DNA of 64,000 bases, from the NCBI RefSeq assembly GCF_036669915.1, contig NC_089321.1, forward strand, positions 11,771,914 to 11,835,913. Direction: 5' to 3'. This stretch comes from Pocillopora verrucosa (lineage: Eukaryota > Cnidaria > Anthozoa > Scleractinia > Pocilloporidae). The notes below the pieces were generated by a model. That model searched no databases. It was given only the letters and a program-made list of their open reading frames with translations, and had not been told where the DNA came from. Positions 35,646 to 60,384 of the stretch are shown here, piece after piece. The stretch's first letter is position 1, and every line of letters starts with the position of its first letter. Position numbers and translations under genes: made by a program.

Positions 35646-38600
35646 TTAAAAGAGAACTATTTCGCTTTTGCTTTGCCCTAGTCCTGTCTCTACTAACATG
35701 TCCGATTGAAGAAGAATTCTTATGACAGCCACAGCGCGCCGCCATGCTTCTTTCTTAGCTGTGTAATCATCAAATACACTGCTTTTGACCTTGTAAGTTA
35801 CTTGCCTCGAGTCAAAGGGATCTCGGACATTTTCGGCGGGGAATCCCGTGGGATCGCATGAAGGAACGCGATCTTTCGCGTGGCCACCTTTGATTCCTCT
35901 AGCTCTCCGAGGTTCCCCTCGATGATCATCGGAATGATCGTCTTTAGATTTCTCAAGAATATCTAGTGTCAAACCTTCGTTGACTAACTGTTCAACATAG
36001 ACAGACGTACCGCTGAGCGAAGTAAAGTCTCCAGAGTTGAGAAGAATACTGCACAAAAAGTATTTGAGTCCTTGGGCAAATGCCGTGTAAACCAAAGGCC
36101 TGAATACCTCTAAACTTTCCTGTAACCATCCAGGGAGAGGACTTGAAGAGAACGCCGGTGCAGCATGTTTGTCTGTTAAAAAAGATATCAAAAATAGAAG
36201 AAAGTACTCTGCAAGTACATCCTAAGCTTTATCATATGACTCGAGCAATCCCGCCTACGCAATCTTATACAAAAAGAAAATTATAGTGAAAGCTGATGTG
36301 TGTAAGGTCGGACGGGCTGACGTGAGCTGGTCCAGGAAAAAGCCGTCTGGCCCCACACTCGTGCCGACCTTACCAGTTTACATTATTTATCTACAGTGTC
36401 AAGTGCTCGGAACAGTTTTCCACTTTCACTTTCTCTTGCAAGAATCGGCAAATGCTCACAAACCACTGGGCAGCCGTTTGTTATGGTTTACATACCTGCT
36501 AATTCAGTCAGCCGTCGGATGCAGGCAGCTTCAATTTCACCCGCTCCAGGTAGAACTCGGCCGCAGGAGAGGGTATTTTTCAACCGATAGATCGAATTCC
36601 AGAACCTCTCCTCCATATCACAGAGGACATCTTTACAAGGGCTACAGAGAAGTACTGTCTGTAAAGGACTGTTGAAATCTGAGGGCAACAGATACCGGGA
36701 AGAAAAAAATTCAGTAAAAGAAACTGATGTAAGGAAAGTACTAGACTACGAGCAGTTCCTCTTTTCGACAGAGTCCGTTGCGCGACTCAAAACAAATGAG
36801 CGGAAAAAAACAGTTGACGCTAGTGTATCGCTCGGAATTATTGTGACGCATGAAAAGTAGGGACTGCGAAGGGACTTCACACAGTGATCCGATGGAAAAG
36901 CAAATCCTTACTGCTTACCTTCGCGACCCGAACTCGCCTCCGCCACTTCTCTAACAAGGACATACTGAAAGGTCTTCATCCCTCTGACGTCACCATCCCT
37001 GCTGCCTTTTGGCTTGCTGTATCTAACTAAACATGGCGCCCAGCCGAGTTCCCACGTTTCTATGGTAACAGGTCCTCCTAGATCCTGTTCCCTCAAGTCA
37101 GCGAGATAAGTAATTATCGCAGAGCCGGTTGCAAAGGAAAGGAGTTGAAGGACTGGATATGAAACGCTTTGAAGCACCGTTATGTTGTGTGATGAACAAT
37201 AATCTAACACTGAATCAAGAACGATTCCTTTGACGACAAGGATACCAATTTTGTGATTACTGAGGCTTGCTGTAACGCTTCGGTACCAGTCTTTTTCCTG
37301 ATTGAAAACGGATGATTTGAAATCTTCATTCCTGATAATTCTGAGAATCTGCAATTCGTTGTTCAGTCCCGCATGACGAAATTCCGGCGTGACATCTCCA
37401 TTAATAAGAGCCAGGAGAAGTTTGCAAGCAGGAAGATTCTGACTTGAAGAAGAAAACTGAAAAGTTGAAGTGTTTTCCAATAGAAGACCATCTATTCTAC
37501 AAGAAAAAGAGTTTGGCGGACCAAGAACTAACTCCGTGTGAATCATTCCAAGAGGAATGTCAAGGTCTTTAAACGATGAAGAAGAGATTGGCAAGGAATT
37601 TGTTACTTCAACTGCAAGTTTCATTTCGAGATCTTTACCATGAGAGAGGCAACTTCCAAGTTCAAACAACGACTTCTTCTTTATTTCAACTGAATTGAGT
37701 TGAGATGGAGAAGAACTAACCCCGTCTTGAACTGATAACTTTTCCCTATCATGTGGTGTTGAATCGACCAAATCCGTTTCTCCTGAATGCCTAGTTTTTG
37801 GTATCGACTTGCTAAGAGTTGTGCCAGTAGACAATTTTTCAGGCTCTCCGTTGGGTGAGTCTTTGGGTCCGTTCGCGACATCTACTAACTTTGGCGAGGC
37901 TTTGTTCCTGGAACTGTTCACAAAATGTCTACTACCCTTGAAAATTTCTGACAGTTTAACACGTCTTTGTACACTTACATTCTTACTTTCCAGTTTCTCC
38001 GAGAGGGAAAACAAGAACCTGTCGTCTCCTTTTATGTCTCTACAATCTGACGAAGTTAGAGGGAGTGGATTAAAATTAATTTTGTGTAGAGGCTCAAAAG
38101 ATTTCGCCCCTACATTTTGAAACTTTGTACGCTTCGTGTCTGTATGAGCGCTAATGAAGTTTTCTCCCAAAAATCCAGAGGATCTCAAGTCTTTATTACG
38201 TTCCTTTGACACTGGTGATTTAGTAGCGATATTTCCATTCGCGGTGTATGAAACAGCCTCTGGTAGAGATGTCTCGAATTCATCTACACATTCGTCTTCT
38301 CTTCGCGAGAAAATACTTTTATTCCAAGATTCTGTTGATTCTAGAGGCGTTCTTGAAGCCTTATTTCCAAAACAGGTGTCTCCTTGAATGTTAGGATAAA
38401 ACTGAGAATTTCCACTTTCCCGTTCGTCAAGCAATAATCTTGTTTTTGTTCCTTGTAAAAAATCTTCTGGCTTCCCCGTGTTCACCCAAGGAGGAGACAT
38501 ATTACTGACGTTCGTTTTTGCATCTAAAATTCCTCCTAGTGACTTGCAACTTTCTGATCGTGATGCAATTTTGTCTAAGTTTTCGTTGCAAGTTGTTACA

Positions 38601-40732
38601 TCTCCATTTCGACTCATTTTTAGATCAAGGCAGTTCTTATTTCGGAAAGTTTTTACCTCTGGCATCTTGGTGGTTGGAGTTTCCATCTTAACTGTCCGTG
38701 GGATAGGTTCCTCAGCTGCTGTGATATACCCTGGAATCCTTGGGATATGACTACGCGCCCCGGGGATGTCAAAATCTCCCCATGGTGAACCATCATCAAT
38801 TCCCCGTTTTTGTCCATCAAAATACCATGATATGTCATCAGCGTCAACAGCATCAATAAGATCAGTCTTCTTCAAGATGTCCAATTCAGCAACTGGATGA
38901 CAAGAAATCCCTTTGGAGATGCTTTTGCTGTTCTCTTTGTCACCATAATCATCTTTGGCTGGATGGTTCAAGTCTTGATGACTTTGCAAAGCTTCGGTTA
39001 TATCAATGGACGTCTGATGACAAACCTCTTCACAGACTTGAAGTGCATCATCAAAAAGACGTAAAATGATCGGGATAGGAACACCCTGGAAATTATCATG
39101 TACAGTCAATTAAAAAAAGTAAGACAGGAAATTTATGATTAACCCTTGGACCCCTGAGAGTGACCAGTATCTAGTTTCGCCTTACAATATCACCCTTATA
39201 TCGCACATTTAGGTTTCAAGAATATAAGAAATGGTCACCAACTAAAAAAAGCACCTGATTGTTATACAAATTCTCCTTGTAAGACCTTAGGAAATGTATA
39301 GAGAACAGTATGGGGAATATGAATACTGATTTTAGAAACTCAACTGTGAAGAGCTGACAAATTTTGACCTTTATAAATGACCCACGATGTTCACATCTGG
39401 TGTTCTTTCAACCTGGTGCATAAAGCCCTACAACTATTTTCACCACAATCAATACTTTCCAGTCAGATTCTTCCACACAATTCAGACTGGTACACCTCCT
39501 GCATAGGTGAAAAAGCTTTGTAAGTCACCTGATCTAGCAGATCCTCCACTGCACTGCTCCAGAAACCAGCCATGCATACGAGAGTCTTGCAGTTTGTTCT
39601 ATATTTTTTGTACAGGCCTTGGCAAGCATCATTTAGGATAAAACCAGCTGGATGCTACAGTGGTGATTGAAAATAATTTTTATCACAAGTGTCCTTATAT
39701 GTTATAATTGACATTACCAAGTTCTTGTCCAGTTACAATTGGACAAAATGTCAGCAGCAAGTTGATAAAATAGGAAATTCAGTAAACAAGTTTGGAAGAA
39801 GAGTTAGAATATTCTAGTTATGGTCTTCATAAGTTTGAGATTCTAGCAGGACTGGATACAGGGTTTTTATCAGAAAATGTAATAGATGTTTGATCTGAAC
39901 TAAGTAGGGTAAATGTAGGTGGCCCCCCTTCATAGGGGGAGTCTGGGAACCTGCTCACCCCCCTCCCCCAAATAAATTTGAATTTTAAACTTCTCTGGGA
40001 TGTGATTTCCAAAAGAAGAAACTGAGACATAAAATGTACATAGACATAAAATGCAAGTGTGTTATTTCTCTTACTTGAATGTCAATGAACTGCAACAACT
40101 TGGCTGCACTGCTGCATATGACAGATTCATCATCTGAACTGCAGCACTTTAAGCTACAAAATACAGAAAAAAAGTTGTTCAGCTGTTTTTTTGTTAGTGC
40201 TACATAACACAAGCTTGAACAGCACTTATTACAAAATATATGGGATTCTCTAGCAAAGTTTAGGTCTCCATGGAAATTTTTTATTTGTTAAGTTTGGAAG
40301 TTCTTGAACTTTTTTTTTTCTTTTTAAACTCAAAGAAATCACCCATTTCATCATCATGGAAAAGGTTGCAGGTAATATATGAACCTAAATTATAAATACG
40401 TGGAAAAAAATGTTCCTGTAGCGATAATTCAAATAATAAGAATACGTTATAGCTATTGTAAATGAAGTAAAATTTTATAGAAAGGAAAATAAAGTCCAAA
40501 TCGTCAAAGAATCGTACACTTACCCGTTGTTAGGTCCCAAAAGTGTTTTGACAGAAGAAGCTGAGGGAAAAATAAAATAAGAAATTGACAAAAAGTCTCC
40601 CGGTGTAAATAATTTAAAGGATGACTTTTTCTATTTTAAGGATCACTTGTTGGTTTCCTTACCAAGAGCTCTCGCTACACTAAGATTGTTGTTATTTCGT
40701 GCCACCCGGCCAAACTCATGTCCGTCCGCCAT
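35646..40732 (-). CDS. BBS12: BBS12, chaperonin-like Bardet-Biedl protein with large insertion
   Basis: Seven exons in phase on the minus strand: 40732-40663, 40560-40524, 40153-40075, 39654-39529, 39085-36919, 36678-36496, 36172-35646, giving 1062 residues. The N-terminus has group II chaperonin motifs (SVKTLLGPNNG, HPAGFILNDACQGL, CKTLVCMAGFWSSAVEDLL, then GVPIPIILRLFDDALQVCEE, close to human BBS12). The apical-like part has LGPPNSFSCRIDGLLLE, HKIGILVVKGIV and WELGWAPCLVRY; the C-terminus has GRVLPGAGEIEAACIRRL and KKEAWRRAVAVIRILLQSD. BBS12 works with MKKS and BBS10 in assembling the BBSome for ciliary traffic. Human BBS12 has about 710 residues; the excess is a hydrophilic, Ser-rich block at about residues 140-600, all within the 2.2 kb exon, which is open throughout. 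Conserved chaperonin ATPase motifs look degenerate, as in the family. It starts 77 bp from COQ10 on the other strand. Confidence 0.88.
39139..39355. repeat. Dispersed MITE-like repeat, family 3
   Basis: TTAACCCTTGGACCCCTGAG, AGTGACCAGTATCTAGTTTC, TATCACCC, CACCTGATTGTTATACAAAT and TAGAGAACAGTATGGGGAAT. It lies in the BBS12 intron just upstream of the 2.2 kb exon and matches 19956-20162 along most of its length. Confidence 0.75.
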
Positions 40733-40809: not shown

Positions 40810-43456
40810 ATGGCTGCGGTAGGGATACGAAGGTCCTTGCCGCTTATTCGACATTGTAGAGGTATTTGGCAAGCCAACAGGTAATTAGAACTATTTATTT
40901 GAAAATGAAACAAGTTACTTGGTTTTTCCTGGGGTAAAGTGAACAGATCGTATTTTTAATGTAAGCTTATCGGCTCTAACTTTTTCTTTATCTTTAGGTC
41001 CTTGAGTTTGTGTTGTTGCCGGCTTTCTCCCGGTATTGAAGTTGTTTCGAGGAAGAAGATGAATAGTTCTCGTGAAGTAAACAAGCACGATTTAAGCGTA
41101 ATCCCAAGGAGAACGTTAATAGGATCCATTATTCCGAATCCCCTCAATACGTCGCGGAGGAGAAAGTATTCCGAGAGGAGATTGCTTGGGTAAGTAAATT
41201 TAATGGTTCAATAAGTTTATGTTTATACTATATTGTAACCCCCTTGTTTGGTTGGAAATGATCATTAGAATACATTTTCAATCCGCACGAGTTTTCAAGC
41301 CCTTTTGATCTTGACTGCTCCATAACTGGTTAAGTAAAACGTTATTTTAGGAAAACTGTTAAACCTGGAAAAATGTACAAATTATTCTGACGTGCACCTT
41401 CGTACAAAGTCCGTCACTCGTTTCTAAGAATTCAAGGTATATGACAAGAAAATGAGCATATATGCTTTACTCTAGTTACTCTGTCTCTAATAGTTTCATA
41501 TAATTGTGTTTGATCGTTGAGGGTTTCAAAAGATTTTAACCCTATAATTCGTAGAAGCAATTATCTTGTGACTTTTCCAAGGTATGATATCCATACATCG
41601 TCCAATAAACAGGTAACGAGAATACTCAAACTTATCAGGTAGAATTTGTTATCTTAATACGATCTAACATCAAATGCTCCTTACTAATTTAAAAGGAAAT
41701 GTGCTGCAGCTAGAGGAGAGAATAAGCAATCAAATCTTGGAAGAACTGTTAATTTTTTTCACAGGAATCTTAGGAGAAATTTATGTTCCTAAGGCTTTCC
41801 AACCTACTTGTTTGGAAGGTTCTTATAAAGGCTTGGAACAATGGATTCCAACAATACTCCTTCAACAACACTTTCGGCAATATTATTTTGATAATATTAC
41901 TGATATATGCAGAGCACTGAGAGTAGTGTTTTCTTTCTATGATTAAGGATACACAGAAAGAATTAAAAGACTACTCTAATCTTAAGTGATCTTATTTTTG
42001 TACTGTTATTTATGTGATAACATTGTTCTTCTTATAGTTACTCAATGGAGGATATGTATGCAGTGGTATCAGATGTGGAGGATTATAGACATTTTGTCCC
42101 TTGGTGTAGGGACTCTACAATTGTGGCCAGAAAACCAGGCTTCCTTAAAGCTAAACTAGCTGTTGGTTTCCCACCTGTGGTTGAGAAGTATACATCTGTT
42201 GTATCTTTGGCCCCACCAAACCTAGTGAAGGTACTAAATCTGTGTAATTAAGTTTTTTATATAATTATGTATCACACATGTGTACATATGTATGTTGACA
42301 CACTGAACTGGATAAGATCTCTAGAATATGCCAACAGGCTTGAGAGCTGACTTTTCATGACAAGTTAAGCTTAACCCTTTTACTCCCATGAGTGACCAAG
42401 ACAGAATTTCTCCTTACAATATCAACACAATATCAACCAGATAAGTGATGAGAATAAAGAAAAATATCAGTTAGGGGATTATAAGTTGATACAATACCAA
42501 ACTTTCTAAACTAACATCACAAGAACTGTACGAGGAACAGTATTGAGAATTACTAATGAGATCTAGGGAGATAAAGTGTAAATTTATTTGGGCAAATGAA
42601 TATCATTGGTAAGATATGCTTTCTGTTTACATCTTGTCATAAAATTGCTTCTGATTCACAGGCAGAGTGTACGGATGGAGAGATGTTTAATTATATGAAG
42701 ACTATTTGGAAATTTAGTCAAGGTTTACCCGGAAATCCTAATACTTGTACATTGGACTTTTATGTAAGTCATTATTATTAATAACATTTTTAAAGTTCTG
42801 TCTTAATTTGTGATTTGGAAGATGTGGGCCCAACAGTTAGTGCACTGAACTGTAAATCAAGGGGTCAGGTTGGGTAGGAGGTGTGGCTTGATCATTGTGC
42901 TGCGTTCTTGAACACATCTTTCTCTTGGTACTTCCCTTCACCCTGAGTGAAAAGGGATACTGTCAAACTGTCAAGAAAGTCTGACATAATGTTGGTGGGT
43001 AACCTGCAATGAACTGGCTTCCCATCCAGGAGGGAGTAGCAATACCCCAAGTCTCTCTATGCTACAGGAACTGGGATAAGCTACAGCTAGATGGGCCCCA
43101 TGGCTCAAGAGCAGATGTTAACCTTTTTCCCAGTAAAATGTTAATTATGCACATGTGGCTCAGCCAAGATAATTATTCAGTGTTGATATTGTTGTTGTCT
43201 TGTTTGGCCATTTTCTCATTAACTCTTTAAATTTATTTTCTTGTAGGTTGAGTTTGAGTTTCGTTCAATCCTTCATTCTCAGCTTTCAACCATGTTCTTT
43301 GACGAAGTTGTTAAAAAAATGGTGAAGGCATTTGAAAAGCGATGTTACTATCTCTACGGACCAGGCCACTTGCATAATAACAAATCTAGACCAGTACCAG
43401 CAGGTATGAGGAAAACTTTTACTTTTAAGGAGGCTATGCACCCACCAAAACAGTAG
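40810..43456 (+). CDS. COQ10: Coenzyme Q-binding protein COQ10, mitochondrial (START-like)
   Basis: Five exons (40810-40880, 40998-41189, 42038-42230, 42662-42763, 43247-43456) give about 255 residues. The N-terminus ([20 protein letters not shown]) is basic and acid-free, as in a mitochondrial targeting peptide. The START/polyketide-cyclase-like domain follows: [49 protein letters not shown], then [23 protein letters not shown]10 binds ubiquinone in the inner membrane and is needed for efficient respiration and CoQ synthesis. The last exon can be read through to TAG at 43454-43456, as annotated, or spliced at a GTATGA donor after PVPA to an acceptor near 43940, which would stop after three more codons; the true C-terminus is uncertain. 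The third intron contains a family 1 repeat. Confidence 0.9.
42371..42580. repeat. Dispersed MITE-like repeat, family 1
   Basis: TTAACCCTTTTACTCCCATG at the left, GAGATCTAGGGAGATAAAGT at the right, and the core GACCAAGACAGAATTTCTCC; inside a COQ10 intron. Confidence 0.85.
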
Positions 43457-49500: not shown

Positions 49501-49802
49501 GTTTACCAGTACATGCTTCTGGTTACATTGGTTAAATATTTGGCCTTCTCTTGGTCATTCTGGTCTGCCATTCCCTCAGTTTGAATTCCTTGGTTTTTAA
49601 ATTGTGGGCTAGAAATTTTGAGGTGAAGCATCATGTTTTAAATGGCAAAATGATATATTTTTGAAACCCCTAGAATGAATAGCCCTCTACTGATGTATTT
49701 TTTCAGGAAGAAAAAGAGCATGAGAGGAGAATGGAAGAACTAGCCACCCTTAAAGATCTACAGTCACAAAGGACATCAAGCAGAGTTCCATCCAGGCCAT
49801 AA
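46513..49802 (+). CDS. LRRC46: LRRC46, leucine-rich repeat protein of cilia/flagella
   Basis: Nine exons (46513-46607, 47060-47168, 47420-47466, 47644-47753, 47877-47946, 48101-48190, 48650-48729, 49206-49264, 49707-49802) give 251 residues. The N-terminal SLIARRNLA then LTHVRLDREKISEIDNLDCL matches human LRRC46. Four to five SDS22-like leucine-rich repeats follow (VTNLYLQKNEITGIENLEVL, LRFLTLAENKINKLENLKML, LKFLDLSDNSIENF, LVILILKGNPC), closed by an LRR cap (LPSLKQLDGNEV), an acidic stretch (SESDEDSDEQEEYGG) and a charged helix. LRRC46 is an axonemal protein needed for normal sperm flagella in mice. The start is the first Met after an in-frame stop at 46498-46500. An AATAAA at 50077 follows. 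Confidence 0.9.
47210..47345. repeat. Degenerate CTAGTYTAG-type tandem repeat
   Basis: Around 135 bp of irregular units such as AGCCTAGTCTA, AGTCTAGTTTAG and AACCCAGCCTAGTCTA in an LRRC46 intron. No function suggested. Confidence 0.7.
48871..49083. repeat. Dispersed MITE-like repeat, family 2
   Basis: Full copy: TTAACCCTTTAACTCCCAAG to TCTGGGAATCAAAGGGTTAA, with GATCTGATTGTTAATTCTCC, GTAAATTAGTTAATGAGAAT and TATTCTCATCACCTGTTTGC inside. In an LRRC46 intron. Confidence 0.8.
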
Positions 49803-50076: not shown

Positions 50077-50082
50077 AATAAA
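50077..50082 (+). terminator. Polyadenylation signal AATAAA of LRRC46
   Basis: Canonical hexamer about 275 bases after the LRRC46 stop codon; a second overlapping AATAAA follows at 50083. Confidence 0.5.
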
Positions 50083-50600
50083 ATAAATATGATTGCATAC
50101 TGTGATCATACTGATTGGGAAAGTCCTGAATAGACCCTATGTTGCTAAGGGCTTGTCTACCATTTTGACAGCGAGAGAGAGGAAGTCAGAATTTAAGTCA
50201 TCGTCATCATTGACTCTGACAATTAATAATTACTTGGTTTATTTACTCAGTCACTGTCATGGTAGCCTGTTCAAGGCATCTACTAAGTCAAACGGAGCAA
50301 TGAGGAAAGTTGGGTGGTATTGTGAAAAGGATGTTTGATATGAAACCCAACCCAATGCTCCCTCGCTGTTTTGCTCCTCTGAGACTGTTGTGCCTGGAAT
50401 AAGCTACTGCCATTGTGAACAATTTTCTTCCAGACTACTCTTACCCAATATGGGTAAGAGTAAAATAAGGGCAATATGTAATTAACTGTTTCTCCAGAGG
50501 TTAAACCATTTACAGTGTGCTATACAAAATAATTAGAAGCCAACAGTGAGTTAAGAAAATTAAAATTTGCTTACTTGTGTGGTTTTGCACAAGTGTCTCT

Positions 50601-50606
50601 TTTATT
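50601..50606 (-). terminator. Polyadenylation signal of the distal WIP 3' end
   Basis: AATAAA on the minus strand about 485 bases past the distal stop codon. Its context (cAGAATAAAAGAgAC) is homologous to the signal at 54698-54703. Confidence 0.6.
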
Positions 50607-51090
50607 CTGTAAAATGATATTACACTTTTTATAATACCTCCAAAAATGGTATTTAACATTTAACATTGTATAATTTTCATAATAACATTGAAACTTGCAA
50701 ATTTCAACCAGTGACTCCTATAATGAGATTCACTTACAACATAATTTTTGGGCTCAAGCATTTTGTCAATATACATTTTTTCAAGAATGGAATTTTTTTC
50801 TTGTCCACTACAATATTTGTTTACTGTAAAGGCAGAATAAAAAACCTACATTTCATCTTTACAAGTGATTTGTTCCTATTTGGAGCAGATTTTGGGTTCT
50901 ATTGCAACAACAAAATTCCTATTTCCAGCCACAATAAACCACGAGGTTAAAGGACTATCAAGCACCACAAAATGTTTGCTCAACATACAAGACCCCATGA
51001 CAATGTCCTCAAGAATGGACCAATATTTTGATCTCTAATTGTAAAAAATTCTTTCCCCCTAGAATTGCTATTAAACTTAAGATATAGTCA

Positions 51091-51260
51091 TTAGGGAGGA
51101 GGAGGTGGGGGTGGGGATGGGGGTGGGACTGGGGCTGGGGCTGGGGCTGGGGCTGGGGCTGGGGCTGGGGTTGTGGTTGAGACTGAGGCTGGTGGAGCTT
51201 CTCCTGATGGGGGAGGAGCCTTGGATTTTGCCTCCTTATTTCCAGAAGACTTTGCTCCAC
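51091..51260 (-). other. WIP distal terminal exon with Pro-Ala repeat
   Basis: Starts GGAKSSGNKEAKSKAPPP, continues with about seven Pro-Ala repeats and ends in eight or more prolines before TAA. It parallels the proximal terminal exon (GGSKSSGNPSAVKANPPPP), which lacks the Pro-Ala run. Confidence 0.85.
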
Positions 51261-54200
51261 CTGAAAACAGAAACAAAATGGTTGTGCATACTTTCTACAT
51301 AAATAAAATAGAGTGAAGCATTGATATATAGATTATGCCAGTCCAGGATTTTATAATTTTTACTTTCATAATCAGCACACACTAGGTTCATTTCTTTGAC
51401 TGTTTGGAAATCAAATGATTCACACCAATTCAACTTGTTGCTTCTCATTGGAAAACTATATAAAAAAGCTTAAGTTTGTACTCAAGCCTAAGGGCCCATC
51501 CAGCTTAGGTTTATCCCTGTTTCCAAAGCATGAAGCAACTAGAGTATTTCTACTACCCCCTGGATGGTATACCAGTCTATCACAAGGCTACTCCTCAGCA
51601 GTTATTTAGGATTCCCTAAGAATTTTCCAGTAACTATTTATACTCCTGGGTGGAGAGGGGCACTGTAAAGTGTTCAGCCCAAGAACACAACAGAGAAGCA
51701 GTGTTCAGTAGAAAGAACCATATTTCATATGTGAATTTTTTTGTTTGCCTTTTAGACTTATTATAGAATTATAAAATAGAACTTACTACCTTTCTTTTGA
51801 GATTTTTTACTTGGATATGTTTTTGTTGATTCTACATAGGGCTCAGGCGGTGGAAGATCCTGGCCGAATGTAAACCTTGATGCAAATTCCCCTGAAAAAA
51901 AAGAAAAGGACACGAAGAGAGTTTAAATTAAGAGAGTGTTCGATTGAAGTTAACAACCATGTGCCAGAGAGTCCACTAATAAAATTTGAATTATACCAAA
52001 TTCGAAATTATTTTAAGCTGTTTACTTACAGGATATATAAGGATGCCAATAACAGAATTAGGGAAAGAGCGGAGAAAACTGAGCTTGTGTTTAGAAAAAG
52101 ATAGAGGCCTATTGCCTTGTTTAAAGAAGAAATTTTTTTCCAAATCACAGACATCATTTCTTCATTTTGTTTCCTGTCTTTCTCCCTTATAAGAAAACCT
52201 TTCCAGAATAAGAGCACATTATCTTCCACAAATAAGAATATGTGAGAGTGAAAAAGAGAAGAGTCAGTTTGGAACATAAGAGGTACATCAAGTATTTAGG
52301 TGTTTTAATCGATGAAAATCTTTCTTGGAAAAATCATTTGGACTGTGTCATAAGTAAGACCACAGGAATGATGGCTAACTGAGAGACTTTGTTCCATCAT
52401 CTGTACACATAAATATTTATAAATCCTTAATTTTCCCTTTTTATTTTACCTCATGGACTCGTTGCTTGAGGTAATGCATCTTAAAACTATTTAAACAAAA
52501 TTGTTGCTCTCCAAAAGCGAGTAGTATATTTAATCTACTTCGTTGATAGAAAAGAACATACAATTCCCTTATTTGTAAATGCAAAAGTTTTGCCAATTAC
52601 CTTCTTATATTATGAAGCTGTATGTAAACTAATGCTCGATGTTCATAACGACAGTGCCTTTTCCAACATCATAAAACTTTTTACGAGAACTTCAAACACC
52701 CTTACATATAATACTCGCTCATCAACGTCACAACTCTTTAGGGCTAAGTACTTTAGACTTAAAATGCAAAGAAAGGCTTTTTCGCGTCTGGAATGAGATA
52801 CCTACTTAATATAAAAATTGTCGAAGAAATCCTTCAAAAAAGAAATAAAAAGAGCTCTTCTCAATATTCTAGAAACTGTAGATTCTCATATGGAGCCTGA
52901 TGAGATAACGTTAATATCAAACACAGCAAAACTGAACCACATTGAACCAATTCTACAATATGTTTCGTACAATAAGAAACTATAGGACTTTTTCTCCTTT
53001 ACAATGAACGTCTATCATTTTCCTATTTTTACATTCCTGTGTATCTTTTTGTCTTTTTATGTTATATTTCTTCATTTCCGTTTTATTTCCAGAGTAATTA
53101 AATTAAGTTGAGAAAATAGAAAATAAAAAAAAATGACCCGCCACGATTAGCATTTGTCATCTGCGGGTCAAAGGAATATCTTGTGAATATATAAGAAAAT
53201 AAAAATAAAAGTGTGAAGTGCGAAGTGTGGTCTACTTAATAATGAAGGTATTTTCAACAGGAAAGAAATCAGAAATCATAGCTTGTAAATCAGACTACAA
53301 AAAACCACTGGTCTAAGTCTAGAAGTTCGTCGTTGCGTTAAAATGACATCGACTTAACAAGCACTTCATCACTTTCCCACGTAAAAAGCGAAGAATTTTG
53401 CACATCAGTGGAGCTGAAAAGAGTAGCTACACCAACCCGAATAATGTGAATGGAAGTTAATAGAAACAGAAGATTGGTGACTAACCTTTGTCCATGTAAA
53501 AACTTCAGTTGGTCAGTGCACCCGATCAGTCAAACCTTTGTTTTCTGTCATCCACATGTATTACAAGGTTCCACAAAACGGTCTTTGTCTTTCAGTTTGG
53601 TGCTGGCATTGCCATTCACTCAAGTTTATCAGACAACTTTGAGAGCCATAAGCTTTTCATAATGAACGTTTCGCCGTTTTTCTCTGATATAGCTGGTTCA
53701 ACCTCATTCAAGTTCAGTTCATTGGTAACGATGACGCCATAACTTAGGCGCCATTTGTCAAAACCCGACAGCCAATGAACATCGTGGAAATTTAACAGGT
53801 GAACCGCGGTTTGGACGCGCGTTTTCACCATTTTTTTTGTTACAACGAATTAGACTGGGTAGAACGCCTCACTTCTTAGAACTGATTCTAGTAAACAACT
53901 AAAAAACCAGTGTATCATATTCTTTTGACGACAAATACGAGATTCCAAGCCTCAGTTTTCTCATTCTTCCCTTCGGCTTTTCGAATAACCCGTCAAAATC
54001 ATATAACTTAAATATCCATCAGCGACGAACTTGATGCTAGAAAACCCGAACAAGGCGAGAAACGTACCCTTTTTGTCTGATAATCTTATTTTAGGCTAAG
54101 GCTTCACGTTTTATTTGTTGGAGATTTTAGGTTACAAACGATTCTAAGATGATCCTTTAGGTATAGTGTTTCAAAAACTAATTGGTTAGTTTTCTTGGTG

Positions 54201-57200
54201 ATCATTGGTAATTATCTTGATTGCACATTACGTACGCCTAAAATTTAGATGTTCTGTAGCGTGACGCGCGATCGAAAATCCCTTTGAAGAATTGGTTTGA
54301 TTGCACTGTTAAGTACAGTTTTACTCAAATTGTACGTTGATTCGTATTACTAAACGAAAAAACATACCACCGTCCCTTCGAGGGCACTCAACAATGTCTC
54401 TCGCTCTTAAGTGTGTTCTTTGCATATAGGTTCATAAAATTTTGGCTATTCTCAGCCCCAAAATTCGCCCCAAATGGTCTTGTGTTGTAACAAAGCGTGT
54501 AGAGCTAATATATGATTGCTGATCTTCAAGCTTTCAAAAGACCATCCCAAATTGCAACCAGAAGCAAACCATTTACCCAATTTGTTTTCCTCTTCCCCCA
54601 AATTTAATTTCTTTTAATTACCAGAGCCCTTAGTTGTAAGCCTGCAGCATAAACAATTAAAATAAATATATTATTGAGATTTCGCAGAACAGTTTCTTTT
54701 ATTTCTAAAATGATAATATACAATTAATAATAATTCCAAAAATTATCATTAATCACCACACAGCATTGTATTTTCGTCTATTATTATTGTTTGGTTATTG
54801 GAATTATCGACACTACCACAAGTTTGTGGTTAACTCTTCACAAAAGATTGTGCTATTCACCTAAAACACCTCTCTTGGGTTCAACCTTCCTTGTTTCCTT
54901 ATCGTTTTAGATGCATTTGAAGAAAAATTTCTTTCAGAGAAAGAAAAATGCGCTCTGAAAAAAAAGATTCGCCACAAATGCACTTAAACAAGGATATCTA
55001 ACTAATACTTAACACAATTCATTTACAACAAAGATACAATACAAAACATAAATTTCATTTTCACTAATGATTTGTTCATAAATGCGGTTTTTATACTCAT
55101 ACTCATGTGAGCATTTATCAGTTCTTGTTGCAACACCAACAAATTTACTATCTCCTGCCTCAGTAAACATGGAGGTTGAAGAAATGCGCTCTAAAAAATT
55201 TTCTGTATTCTGCATACAAATGTCACCTACAAAGTCCACACCTCTGGATCAATGTTTTTTAAGGTTGAAGTTGCTTCAATAATTCTTTTAATTGTAAAAA
55301 ATTCTGTCTTCCTAGATTTGTTAAGAAACTTAGGTAAGAGACTCATCTCCTGGGAGGAGGGGGTGGGGGTGGTGGTGCTCCCCTTGATGGGGGAGGAGGG
55401 GGTGGATTGGCTTTAACTGCACTTGGGTTTCCAGAAGACTTTGAACCACCTGAAAATAATAATAAAAATTCAGTAAAGTTTCAAATGAATACTTTTCAAA
55501 TTTGTCAATGCCAGATTGTTCAATGAACGATTTTTTTGTCAAATTTAATTATTCAGTATTGACAGTAAATTTGATCTCAGTTTTTTCATCATTTGCCAAT
55601 TTAAATTTTTCCTTTTCCAGTTTTGACTTTTCTGTCTTATCTTATCCTTGTCGTGGTCATGAAAAGACGCCCCATTTTATACATTTTTTGATTTTTTTTA
55701 CACATCTATGGTAACTATTGCAACACAACACCCTTGCCACTATCAGTGTTGAGAAAGGAGGCTTTAAACCTGCATGGTGCATTCCTACCGCAAGTGAAAT
55801 AGTAAGAAATCTTGCATGTAAATCTGTAGCCCTTAAGTTCAGCCCTTATGTCCATATGAAATATCTTAATCATTCTGTTTGATGGTTTAGAATGAAGCCA
55901 TTGTAAACAAGAGCACATTTGCCAGTTTTAACAGGATTTGCATCACTACATACCACCTTTCTTTGGATTTTTGCTTGGATATGTTCTTGTTGTTTCTACA
56001 TAAGGCTCAGGAGAGGGAAGATCTTTACTAAATGAAAATCTTGATTCAAAATCATCTGGAAAAGAACCAAAGCAAATGAATGTTGGAGCATCTATTGATC
56101 AGTCTAAGCTGTGGAACCATGGATAAAAACTCACTTCATTTCAAATCAATGACATGAAATTAAATTAACAAAAGACTGATACAGCCTTGCCCACACCTCC
56201 CAAGACAAGCATTATAGAGAAGATTCCCACATGAGCCTGTGGGCAATGGACTGAGCAGGGCTGGAAAAGGCTGTTCAGCCTCACAAGACACTGGATGAAA
56301 GAAGAAAAGAAGAAACAGAAGGAAAATGCTTAATACAATAAAAATTATAGCTCTTGGTGAAGAAGCACAGACCTTGATGTCCTGTATCATCCAACCCTAA
56401 AACTCAGTCAATAAGTACAAATTATCAAATATTAAGTTATTTAATTACCTTCTGGGTCTGACAGTAGCTCTGGGGGAGGAGGGGGAAGAGAGCTTCTTGT
56501 TGGTCCATTCATCATCATGTTACTCGACCTACCATGCAAAGAGGACGGTGGTGGCGGAGGAGGCCCTGATCTCTTATTTTCAGGTGGAATCCTGGCTGGA
56601 GGGGGAGGTGGGGGCCCTTGCCCACCTGAAGGAGGTGGTGGTGGCAAAGGAGCTGATCCTCGAGGTACAGGAGGACCAAAATTTGGCTTTGATGGAACTT
56701 TACTGGGAGGCGGAGGAGGAGCTTGGGATGGTGGTCTTGAGGAGGACGGAGGAGGTCCTCTACTTGGAGGAGGGGGTGGTGGCCCTCCTCTTGATGGAGG
56801 TGGTGGGGGAGGACCTCCTCGTGGGGGTGGAGGTTGGGGAGCAGCCATACTTGGATTACTCCTTGTGGGAGTTGGTGGAGGGGGAGCACTTGTTTTTGGA
56901 GCTGATGGTGATGGTGGGGGTGGAGGTGGTGCACTCCCTCTTCCTGGAGGTGGCGCACCTCCTCTTCCTGGTGGAGGGGGTGGAGGACCCTGTCTCATTC
57001 CAGGAGGTTGTCTGGGTGGACCTGTTGGAGGAGGAGTGGGTAATGGTCTTGAACTTGACCCTGATGGGGGTGGTGGCAATGGCCTGGAGTTTTCAGATCC
57101 TGGTGGCCTGTTGGATGGAAGTGGGGGTGGTGGAGTATACCCAGGAGGCTTACTGGGTGGACCTGGAGGTAGATTGGGGAGAGGTCTTGAGCCACCACTG

Positions 57201-60167
57201 GATGAGCTGGAATTATTTGGGGTTGGTGGTTTGAAGCCAGGTGGTCGCATGGCTGGCCCTTTGGCTCCTGCAGAAAACAAAAAATATATTTATTGAAATA
57301 AAATTTAATCATCCTTCACCAGAGTGGAGGTGAATATACCCTGTTATCACTGACACTGAGGTGAATAAATGTTTTGTATATCCCTCTGATGAACACAATA
57401 ATCTGTTTGCTACTGTGGATACAGTTAAACCTGTAAAAAATGTTCACCCACCAGGAGTGGCAGTTCTACAGAATTGGGGTCAACAGCGACAAACTAAAAT
57501 GACAGCAAAGCATAAAAACAGAACAATAAAGCAGAATTACTTGTTGGACCCCTTGGTCATTGACTAGTGTCATGTTGGAGTGCAATGTTTGCTCTAACAG
57601 TTCTAAGAAGAAAGATGATTGCAATGTGTTGAGGACATTTGAACTCAAATTAGCAACATTAATTTCCACTTCATCTGTGACCTATTACTATAGATCAGAT
57701 GCACCACAACGTAGAATCTACTTATTAAATTGAATGAGTGGAAATTAAGAAGGTAAGTTTCCTATAGAGTACACTTACATGCCTAAAAATACATCTGGCT
57801 TTATCAAGTTGAATAACACTAAGTAATGTCCAAAGCTGTCAATAAGAGCCAAAAGCCAGCCAAAACTTTTGATCACAAAGAATATACAATACAATCATAC
57901 CTCCTGTTCCAGGTTTGCCCCTCTCTGCAGCTGGTCTCAGTTTTGGCATTCCTCCAGCAAAGAGACCACCTAATCCCATAGGGGATGCACCCATGCCACC
58001 TCCGCCGCCGCCACCGCCGCTACTGCTACTGCCTCCAGTACCTCCACCACTACTACTTGGATTTGGTTTATCTTGAAGGAAAGTTCATGAAGGAAAAGTC
58101 AGTGTGCCATGTTTTTTTCACACAGTGCTTCCACAGGTTTGGATAAAATAAACTGCAGTTGCTAATGATTGGGACAATTTTAGATCCTTTTAGACCTTTA
58201 AATTCCCAAGATCTGATTGTTAATTCTCCCCTCTAGCTGTTACACAATTCCTTGATAACTTGTTATTGGAATTTTGAGCTAGATCAAGATAACGACTTCT
58301 AGCTTAAAGTTTGATTAATTTCATTTCCTGTTTTAAAAGATAATATTTAAATATTAAGGGAAGAAGTAACATGCTAATTACTTCTAGGAGTTAACACTTT
58401 CACTACTGAGAGTGACCAAGACAGAATTTCTCCTTACTATATCTATACAATATCATGTAGACGAGTGATGAGAATTAAGAAAAATATCAATTATGGGATT
58501 ACTAATCAATCCGATACCAAATTCTCCAAACTAACATGATGAGAATTGTTTGGCAGACAGTAAGGAGAATTACTAATGAGACCTTGGGAGTTCAAGGGTT
58601 AAAGGAAATACACAGGGTTCTCAATAGAAGGCGGCACCCAGCAATTGATCGCCGCTTACTTTGGGATTTATAGCTGCTTACTTTGTTTTTAAATCACTTT
58701 TCTTTTCTTTGTTTTGTTCTGCAAGTTTGCTTGAGTTGTTTCTGAATTTCTCTTCTGTTTCTTGCATGACTGTGATCCAAACAAAACTGGGAAATTTTGT
58801 ACAGTTCTGGACTCAGTCGATGAACGCCATTTTACTTGAGTCCACGCATTCACGGTGAAACATGGTAATGAGGTCTCCTACTTTACCAGTGATCACCTCC
58901 TACTTAAAAATCTATTGAGAACCCTGAATACAGTGGTACATTACCCCACTACCTAGAAATCCCAAGGGAGACAAAAAATGGTTTGAGTTTGTGGGGGTTC
59001 AAGCTAGCTGATAGTTAATGACTGAAAAAATGGGGTGAAGGGAAATGGGATCTTCTACAAGTTATCAAGGGGTTAAAGTTAACTGAGTTCAAGTAAGCTG
59101 GGTTGTAATGTATCACTGACAATATTTTTCATAATAGCCACCATTATTTGTACCCATTTTAAACTGTAAATGTTTTGTTAAATCCTAAAAATAAATCTCT
59201 CAGTTACTGATCAACCAAATTATAGTTGTTTTTGACTTTGGTTGATAAATGAAAGCTAAGTTTTTTTTTGTTTCTGACTTTGTTTGATTTAAAAAGTTTT
59301 GCTTTCTTGCTCTTCTGTACAGTTTAAAATCAAAACATTTCTGAAAACTGTTGGACACACAGTAGAGGCACAATAAATACCTTATTAAAAATGTATTCAC
59401 AATTCATACAATAAGTTATGGATCTTTGCTTTTCCCTCTTTGATTTATGACCTAAGCACTTCATGGCTCGTATCATTATTCCAATAATATGCCATTTTAC
59501 CATATTAGGGCAACAGAATGTGCAAAATATGCTACAGAAATACATTGCAAAACAGGATCAAATTTACGAACAGAAAAATAGAGGAACAAAATGGTGAACT
59601 GTATGATCCCAACTTTGTTTTTTCCCCATTTTTAGGCTTGAATTTGAAAGCAAAAAAACTTTTAAGTGCATGAAATTTTTTTGGTAGTCATCAAAAGCAC
59701 TTCATTGGCCACATTTGATCAATACTATCCTTTGATAGGATATATTTCAAAAACTGAAAGCCAAAATGTTTGAAAATGAAGTAACACTGGCAAGGAATAA
59801 TAAATACCTTATCCAATGGTTTAACATATAATATGTGTAGACATTTTGTTAAAACATCAAACAAAGTGGATTTATGGACTCCAAAATCAATTAGTAAGAA
59901 GTATTTCCTACAAACTCTTACATGCTCTAATTTTTTTTTCAAGAACTCGCATTAGAAATTCCTTGGATTTGTTTTTGGTAACTTACTTGATACAGTAGGA
60001 GCACTACGATCATTTGTGACTGTCTTCTTCAGCTTGGCGCCTTGATGGATCTGGCTTAGCAGGGCCCCCCTATTCTGAGGCTTTCCAGAGGATTTTGGAG
60101 GTGGACCAGAAGCTCTGGGTGCAGGGGGAGGTGGTGGTCCTGGAGGGGGAGGAGGGGGAGGAGGCAT
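51091..60167 (-). CDS. WIPF: WIP-family protein (WAS/WASL-interacting), two alternative C-termini
   Basis: Shared exons: 60167-59987, 58071-57901, 57267-56449. Then either 56055-55957 plus 55449-55343 (458 residues) or 51891-51790 plus 51260-51091 (480 residues). The start is a polyproline run followed by the actin-binding WH2 motif RGALLSQIHQGAKLKKTVTN and DRSAP, then a Gly-rich segment with LFAGGMPKLRP, and about 270 residues of proline-rich profilin/SH3 ligands. The C-terminal exon pair carries the WASP EVH1-binding motif, ESRFSFSKDLPSPEPY or ASRFTFGQDLPPPEPY, then TYPSK and a final Pro run. WIP proteins hold and stabilise WASP/N-WASP and steer Arp2/3-driven actin assembly. All junctions are phase 1, so both pairs splice in frame. 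An acceptor near 60218 suggests an upstream 5' UTR exon, with a donor candidate near 62447. Confidence 0.92.
51128..51171 (+). repeat. (GGGGCT)n hexanucleotide repeat in coding sequence
   Basis: About seven uninterrupted GGGGCT units on the plus strand, read from the minus strand as Ala-Pro codons. Four or more GGGG runs this close can form a G-quadruplex; length is likely variable. Confidence 0.85.
51790..51891 (-). other. WIP distal WASP-binding exon
   Basis: A 102-base phase 1-1 exon encoding EFASRFTFGQDLPPPEPYVE and STKTYPSKKSQKK. It is a diverged duplicate of the 99-base exon at 55957-56055. Confidence 0.88.
52150..53175 (+). mobile_element. Non-LTR retrotransposon (LINE) 3' fragment
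   Basis: A broken frame reads KYLGVLIDENLSWKNHLDCV, a hallmark of the RT C-terminal region, then PITFLYYEAVCKLMLDVHND and NTRSSTSQLF with stops and shifts. At 53137-53170 an inverted repeat (GACCCGC ... GCGGGTC) forms a terminal hairpin, followed by an A-rich tail, as in several LINE groups. The piece lies between the two copies of the WIP terminal exons. Confidence 0.65.
53176..54690. other. WIP intron/intergenic-like sequence, nothing recognised
   Basis: Within the span between the proximal 3' end and the distal exons. It holds a somewhat GC-richer patch at 53730-54000 without coding signal. Confidence 0.3.
54698..54703 (-). terminator. Polyadenylation signal of the proximal WIP 3' end
   Basis: AATAAA on the minus strand about 640 bases past the proximal stop codon; sequence around it resembles the distal signal at 50601. 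Confidence 0.6.
55343..55449 (-). other. WIP proximal terminal exon
   Basis: Encodes GGSKSSGNPSAVKANPPPP, a Pro-rich stretch and ends PRR then TGA. Homologous in position, phase and start to 51091-51260. Confidence 0.85.
55957..56055 (-). other. WIP proximal WASP-binding exon
   Basis: A 99-base phase 1-1 exon encoding DDFESRFSFSKDLPSPEPYV and ETTRTYPSKNPKKG; mammalian WIP has the corresponding ESRFYFHPISDLPPPEPY. Confidence 0.88.
57635..57740. repeat. Dispersed repeat, family 4 (fragment)
   Basis: ACTTCATCTGTGACCTATTA followed by AGATGCACCACAAC and GTAGAATCTACTTATTAAAT resembles the second half of the copies at 20600 and 24726. In a WIP intron. Confidence 0.45.
58192..58394. repeat. Dispersed MITE-like repeat, family 2
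   Basis: CTTTAAATTCCCAAGATCTG at the left, with GATTGTTAATTCTCCCCTCT and TAGCTGTTACACAATTCCTT inside; the right end CTTCTAGGAGTTAAC runs directly into the next element. Confidence 0.75.
58391..58603. repeat. Dispersed MITE-like repeat, family 1
   Basis: TTAACACTTTCACTACTGAG at the left, GTGACCAAGACAGAATTTCT inside, and TTGGGAGTTCAAGGGTTAAA at the right. It abuts a family 2 copy, sharing the GTTAAC junction. Confidence 0.8.
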
Positions 60168-60384
60168 TTTTCCCTTGATTCACTTTACTCCCCCTGTTAC
60201 AAAGTTCTTTAGTATCTGTAAGAGAAAAGAATAAATAAGGCATTAGTTTCTTTCATTCAAACTGTGCAGCCATTATCCATCTCAGATCAATATGCAAGCA
60301 AGGTAATTTGAACAAGGAAATAACAAACAAGTATCATCTGAAAAAAACACTGTCATGTTGACCAAATTCCTCTGCTACAACTTC

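Follow-up and report, generated by a model that had tools for sequence, protein, structure and literature searches.

Old tandem copies of the 3' module of a Pocillopora verrucosa WIP gene as possible alternative 3' ends

Among the main activators of actin branching is WASP, whose partner WIP holds and protects it. In a 64,000-nucleotide stretch of the Pocillopora verrucosa genome (contig NC_089321.1; hereafter the window, whose coordinates are used throughout), the 3' part of a WIP gene is present twice. This raises the question of whether the second copy serves as another end of the same gene, has become a small gene of its own, or is a relic of the duplication.

The order of exons on the minus strand is a WH2/ATG exon, a Gly-rich exon, a proline-rich exon and then two WASP-binding tail exons. 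The first coding exon (59987-60215) carries the ATG at 60167, with TTACAG before 60215 and the donor CAA/GTAAGT at 59986. Its WH2 motif matched Pfam PF02205 with E 3.1e-13, giving the N-terminal actin-binding motif of the WIP/verprolin family. The Gly-rich second coding exon (57901-58071) is followed by an 819-base proline-rich exon (56449-57267), which ends at a donor at 56448 in phase 1 (one codon base left over). With consensus splice sites, the model ending in the first copy (copy A) has 459 amino acids; it is one out of 45 in-frame combinations, selected by splice consensus. The C-terminal WASP EVH1-binding motif of the family was found in the tails of both copies, which matched human WIP in PDB (9s9x_B) with E 3.2e-7 for copy A and 9.8e-8 for copy B. 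The identification of the gene as WIP in the initial annotation is therefore supported by the WH2 match and by the human WIP matches of both tails. Like WIPF1, CR16 and WICH, the predicted protein has a WH2 motif near the N terminus, then a proline-rich middle and a C-terminal EVH1-binding motif with FxF, DLPxPEPY and TYPSK or SYPSK. The gene differs from these family members in having two 3' modules behind a single gene body.

Copy A consists of exon A1 (55954-56055, minus strand; DDFESRFSFSKDLPSPEPYVETTRTYPSK), the coding part of exon A2 (55343-55449, minus strand, ending GAPPPPPPPPRR before the stop) and a 3' UTR (54690-55342, minus strand) with AATAAA at 54703-54698. Copy B has the same layout on the same strand, with exon B1 (51787-51891; GEFASRFTFGQDLPPPEPYVESTKTYPSK), the coding part of exon B2 (51091-51260), which contains a PA tract and ends PPPPPPP before the stop, and a 3' UTR (50595-51090) with AATAAA at 50606-50601. 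The PA tract is encoded by a hexamer array of 14.5 copies (51106-51192). The initial annotation had described the last two coding exons, their intron and the 3' UTR with its AATAAA as present twice, and its coordinates proved right to the base: the exon starts at 56055/51891 and 55449/51260 and the signals ending at 54698/50601 give offsets of 4164, 4189 and 4097 nt. Its range also spans a 2.7-kb spacer, which shows none of the similarity seen between the copies and was left undescribed. The loss of an acidic epitope in copy B, a LINE piece, the 3' UTR similarity retained beyond the signal and a second WASP-type gene had likewise been missed.

Translation of the joined exons showed that all joins are in phase 1 and that each copy has its own terminal stop, as had been proposed. 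Joined to the upstream exon ending at 56449, the combinations A1A2, B1B2, A1B1B2 and also A1B2 are in frame, each with a single stop at its end; A1B1B2 places both WASP-binding exons in one protein, an option the initial annotation had foreseen. These four in-frame isoforms need no new start codon, and neither B1 nor B2 contains an in-frame ATG. The B1 acceptor is pyrimidine-rich and keeps phase 1, and the splice sites, frames, stop and poly(A) signal of copy B are all intact. A1 and B1 each have two overlapping donors 3 nt apart (55953/55956 and 51786/51789) that keep the frame, so that one residue can be added or dropped. Homologous terminal exons stand here in tandem, each with a stop and a poly(A) signal, as in tandemly duplicated alternative terminal exons.

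We compared the two copies by pairwise alignment and by local alignment against 300 dinucleotide shuffles each. In exon 1, 85/105 aligned bases (81%) are identical, and identity over the aligned parts is 63% in the 3' UTR and 45% in the internal intron. The 3' UTRs gave z = 18.9, and their far half z = 11.7. The upstream introns (z = 0.4) and the internal introns (z = 0.3) showed no similarity above the shuffles, nor did the DNA beyond the poly(A) site (z = -0.2). Similarity between the copies is far above chance and is confined to the mature-mRNA parts plus the splice edges. Since the introns can no longer be aligned while the exons, splice edges and 3' UTR still can, the copies are old. Kept mRNA parts with erased introns are the pattern expected if both modules become spliced, polyadenylated RNA. 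A 44-nt block just 3' of both stops (55332-55289 and 51079-51036) is 84% identical, compared with 63% across the aligned 3' UTR, and is possibly a shared RNA element.

Genome searches with the tails returned mainly the two modules themselves. With the A tail, the matches were A1, A2, B1 and two weak hits containing stop codons (E 0.73 and 3.6; five matches among six candidates), and the B tail found B1, A1 and B2 (3/3 candidates). Neither query found another clear WASP-binding tail elsewhere in the genome. Relatives of the tails were also absent from viral_contigs and genome_contigs, which are non-animal collections where none were expected.

Judging from the sequence, we give about even chances to the reading that an old tandem duplication created alternative 3' ends of one WIP gene, and we prefer it to a separate small gene or a relic. 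It is the simplest outcome of a partial duplication because copy B needs no new start. The duplication of the WIP 3' part would have produced two modules, each with a WASP-binding exon, a tail exon, a 3' UTR and a poly(A) signal. Module A is probably the default end, since transcription reaches it first and the CpG depletion of the WIP unit ends close to its poly(A) signal. Transcription past that signal would allow either the donor at 56448 (phase 1) or the A1 donor to be spliced to B1. Under ordinary exon definition, an exon such as A1 is often kept in a read-through transcript. If read-through occurs, A1 behaves as a normal internal exon, complete with a donor, so that A1-B1-B2 would be a likely distal product; this form of WIP, which carries both WASP-binding motifs, may be the predominant distal one. 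B1-B2 alone would require skipping of A1.

The two tails differ in the contacts they could make with WASP. Human WIP is described as using four parts to contact the EVH1 domain of WASP: an acidic segment (DEWE, or DDFE in CR16 and WICH), an FYF motif, a DLPPPEP core and KSYPSK (PMC7407642). According to the same source, binding in cells is abolished when the FYF part is lost and weakened when the acidic or proline parts are lost, and the acidic contact has the largest effect on WASP ubiquitylation among these contacts. The separate roles of the four mapped contacts, especially the acidic one, are described there as still being worked out. The copy A tail keeps DDFE, FSF and TYPSK, and its core is changed to DLPSPEP. 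In the copy B tail, GEFA replaces the acidic segment, and FTF, the canonical DLPPPEP and KTYPSK are present. The epitope is thus found in A, in its DDFE form, and not in B. The motifs and tails are distinct, as had been predicted. Seventeen columns are invariant among human, A and B, and identity to human is 57% for A and 56% for B; since the two are at nearly the same distance from human, neither can be taken simply as the ancestral form. A-type tails would carry the epitope by which human WIP helps to shield WASP against ubiquitylation. Tails of the B type would lack it and offer the canonical core, and the choice of end would thereby change how WASP is held and shielded.

Potential partners were searched for with the WH1 family, which gave 10 matches in the genome, eight of them above the family cut-off. 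Two genes are of the WASP EVH1 type; matches at C7 and at C4:29.7 Mb look Ena/VASP- and Homer-like by eye. The first WASP gene (C10:12034925-12040459, placed by its reading frames) shares chromosome and strand with WIP, at a distance of about 0.2 Mb. It has an EVH1 domain (E 1.3e-37 to human WAS), two WH2 motifs and an acidic end, and a CRIB-like piece was recognized by eye only, the PBD family scoring below its cut-off there. Its first exon contains ENDEIFS, resembling the human WASP helix ENQRLFE, which is reported to be touched by the acidic segment of WIP (PMC7407642). The second WASP-type gene (C4:30793000-30800000) has an EVH1 domain (E 1.9e-15 to human WAS; PF00568 E 8.3e-15), a proline-rich part and, by eye, an acidic end and a WH2-like piece that has no Pfam match. 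Its CpG depletion is not strong. A regular-expression search of the minus strand up to C4:30813500 revealed no convincing first exon with a partner helix for the acidic clamp.

In cnidarians, CpG frequency serves as a proxy for the methylation of gene bodies (PMC8857923). Along the window (1-64000), the ratio of observed to expected CpG alternates between about 0.1 and above 1 and could map methylated units. The ratio is 1.21 on the 5' side of WIP, 0.22 in the WIP body, 0.21 in copy A and only 0.07 in copy B (3 CpG seen, 45.3 expected). Between the copies lie a single-copy spacer (53229-54640) with 51 CpG seen and 51.4 expected (0.99), which could be a promoter or plain intergenic DNA, and a truncated LINE piece (52219-53228, plus strand, antisense to WIP, with a reverse-transcriptase-like frame by eye) with 20 seen and 24.8 expected (0.81). 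A recent repeat insertion as the CpG source of the whole spacer was ruled out for 53240-54640, whose sole genomic match is itself (1/1 candidates).

A CpG-normal spacer between the depleted WIP gene with copy A and the depleted copy B does not sit well with a single methylated unit extending across both ends. The methylated unit of WIP seems to end at copy A, and copy B seems to lie in another. This speaks against alternative ends, which on their own also leave the renewed depletion of copy B unexplained. The CpG kept by the LINE piece points the same way. The piece has many genomic copies (40 scored among 81 candidates and 40 among 98) and is 85-89% identical to 18 sampled copies, some of which lie near one another on one contig. 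The CpG ratio of these copies was at least 0.8 in 11/18, 0.50-0.61 in three and 0.08-0.34 in four, the last four at 85-87% identity. LINE copies of similar divergence can therefore lose CpG, and the one in the window has not. In three cnidarians, methylation is reported to be higher in introns than in exons, promoters and intergenic DNA, to be higher still in intronic repeats, and to fall toward the 3' end (PMC8857917). The same source describes intergenic retrotransposons of Acropora as about as methylated as intronic ones, so the LINE alone cannot separate an intron from intergenic DNA.

Because of the CpG break, we raised to a possible, if still unlikely, reading that copy B forms a small independent gene driven by a promoter within the spacer at 52.2-54.6 kb. 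Its product would be a tail without WH2 and the large proline-rich exon, which would take up the EVH1 domain of WASP in competition with full WIP. A single-copy CpG-normal spacer between two depleted stretches resembles the 5' side of WIP, and the CpG retained by the LINE piece also speaks for this reading. In Nematostella, the loss of gene-body methylation is reported to lead to new transcription starts inside genes (PMC13345969), and an unmethylated spacer would accordingly be permissive for a promoter. One weak candidate start piece, M-D-K at 53495-53486 on the minus strand, has a phase-1 donor at 53485 that scores 4.5. It is suggestive at best: this one donor of at least 4.5 with a phase-1 ATG piece compares with 0.2 +/- 0.5 expected in 200 shuffles, near chance, three of eight donors qualify at a score of at least 2.5, and several other ATGs lie upstream of the candidate. 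A separate gene would moreover need a new promoter and start exon.

The promoter argument is also weakened by our CpG control, as the 3' halves of genes can be CpG-normal too. Among four gene spans, 9/59 one-kb windows had a ratio of at least 0.8, all of them in two genes and there within the 3' half; the spans were taken from the first domain match to the last (for WASP, from frames judged by eye), which need not be the true gene ends, and the clathrin span possibly holds more than one gene. A CpG-normal stretch followed in the 3' direction by renewed depletion below 0.6 occurred in none of the four. Within the window, a 733-aa frame (36911-39109, minus strand) lies mostly in DNA with a ratio of 0.74-0.85. 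This frame has a sub-threshold chaperonin match (23.2 bits; cut-off 34.3). Elsewhere in the window, 42021-42248 on the plus strand matches Polyketide_cyc (E 1.2e-13) and looks COQ10-like by eye, and no known RNA family reached its gathering score.

The depletion of copy B could have another source, a side question compatible with the other readings. A convergent plus-strand gene running through copy B would make its CpG ratio uninformative about its use. A plus-strand frame, taken by eye for a gene end, stops at 49802, and the gene itself has a ratio of 0.13. The stretch from there up to copy B is depleted as well (6 CpG seen, 26.9 expected), and plus-strand AATAAA also occurs at 50836, 50933, 51302 and 51978. 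Such signals at 50077 and 50082, however, already lie close behind the stop, and we consider run-through doubtful.

It appears improbable that copy B is a duplication relic in slow decay, with little or no transcription. The hexamer array in B2 and the lost DDFE epitope would suit decay. The exon-pair comparison that the initial annotation had suggested gave pN 0.143 and pS 0.389 over 34 exon 1 codons, a pN/pS of 0.37 (bootstrap 0.17-0.86), with 1.2% of 5000 bootstraps at or above 1. Adding eight further codons of exon 2, which is mostly low-complexity and unalignable and was otherwise left out, again gave 0.37, with 0.7% of bootstraps at or above 1. A neutral simulation counting only stop-free runs gave 13.1 amino-acid changes against 11 seen, and 18% of 5000 runs reached the observed count (13% with the exon 2 codons). 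Since the simulation fails to reject neutrality by amino-acid count alone, the protein-level selection signal is modest. This leaves room for a relic and gives alternative ends limited support. Against decay, 51% of simulated exon 1 sequences of equal divergence gained a stop, while the frame, splice sites, stop and poly(A) signal of copy B remain whole; the 3' UTR was kept though the introns were erased, and copy B is strongly CpG-depleted. The proposal that the frames stayed open after clear divergence is upheld, with purifying selection on them only modestly indicated.

We also considered, as a less likely course, a tandem duplication of the whole gene whose second copy has since lost its 5' exons. 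No similarity was seen between the stretches of 371 and 376 nt that precede A1 and B1, and in a repeat search of 48-60 kb the proline-rich exon matched the copies only in proline-rich low-complexity stretches. A retrocopy was ruled out by the intron, which lies at the same place and in the same phase. The possibility raised by the initial annotation that the copies are alleles or a misassembly was checked and is rejected with near certainty, given an exon 1 synonymous divergence of about 0.55 (Jukes-Cantor, 21.8 sites), unalignable introns, a window without N and a single place for each copy in the 52-contig assembly.

Returning to alternative ends, a more specific model joins the tails to the two WASP-type genes. 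With transcription past the first poly(A) signal, WIP would gain a second site for holding WASP (A1-B1-B2), and the choice of 3' end would thereby set WASP valency. The motifs would in addition be specialised, the acidic clamp of A shielding the CpG-depleted, probably constitutive C10 WASP and B serving the CpG-normal C4 WASP-type protein. We regard this combination as a long shot.

Tandem duplication of terminal exons is a known kind of event, and the WIP tail is a new case. Tandem exclusive terminal exons are described in Drosophila pip, and 3' variable regions in PGRP-LC and CG42235 (PMC9013439); there as here, homologous terminal exons lie in tandem 3' of shared exons. For those genes, exclusive use and competing RNA structures are reported in that source, whereas the WIP case comprises only two copies, whose use is predicted from sequence. 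The first exon of the WIP modules is phase-symmetric, which, compared with those genes as described, makes a tail with both motifs possible. We found no sign of competing RNA structures between the upstream intron and four stretches (z -0.9 to 0.9, 40 shuffles each, a weak test). If copy B is a separate gene, it would resemble microProteins as described in PMC4807768, in which a single binding domain from a larger protein would sequester the partner; it differs from them in that its start codon and transcript are putative. A search of open-licence papers, a thin test, found no earlier report of duplicated WIP 3' modules.

Taken together, one animal carries two natural versions of the WIP tail, one without the acidic contact and one with a changed proline core, plus an open frame for both in one protein. 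If both tails are made, the animal would offer a natural experiment on the strength of the contacts, on valency and on how WASP is protected. With a promoter of its own, copy B would instead encode a rival for WASP binding that arose by partial duplication. In both cases, the locus is an example of a whole 3' module, beyond a single exon, that was copied and kept.
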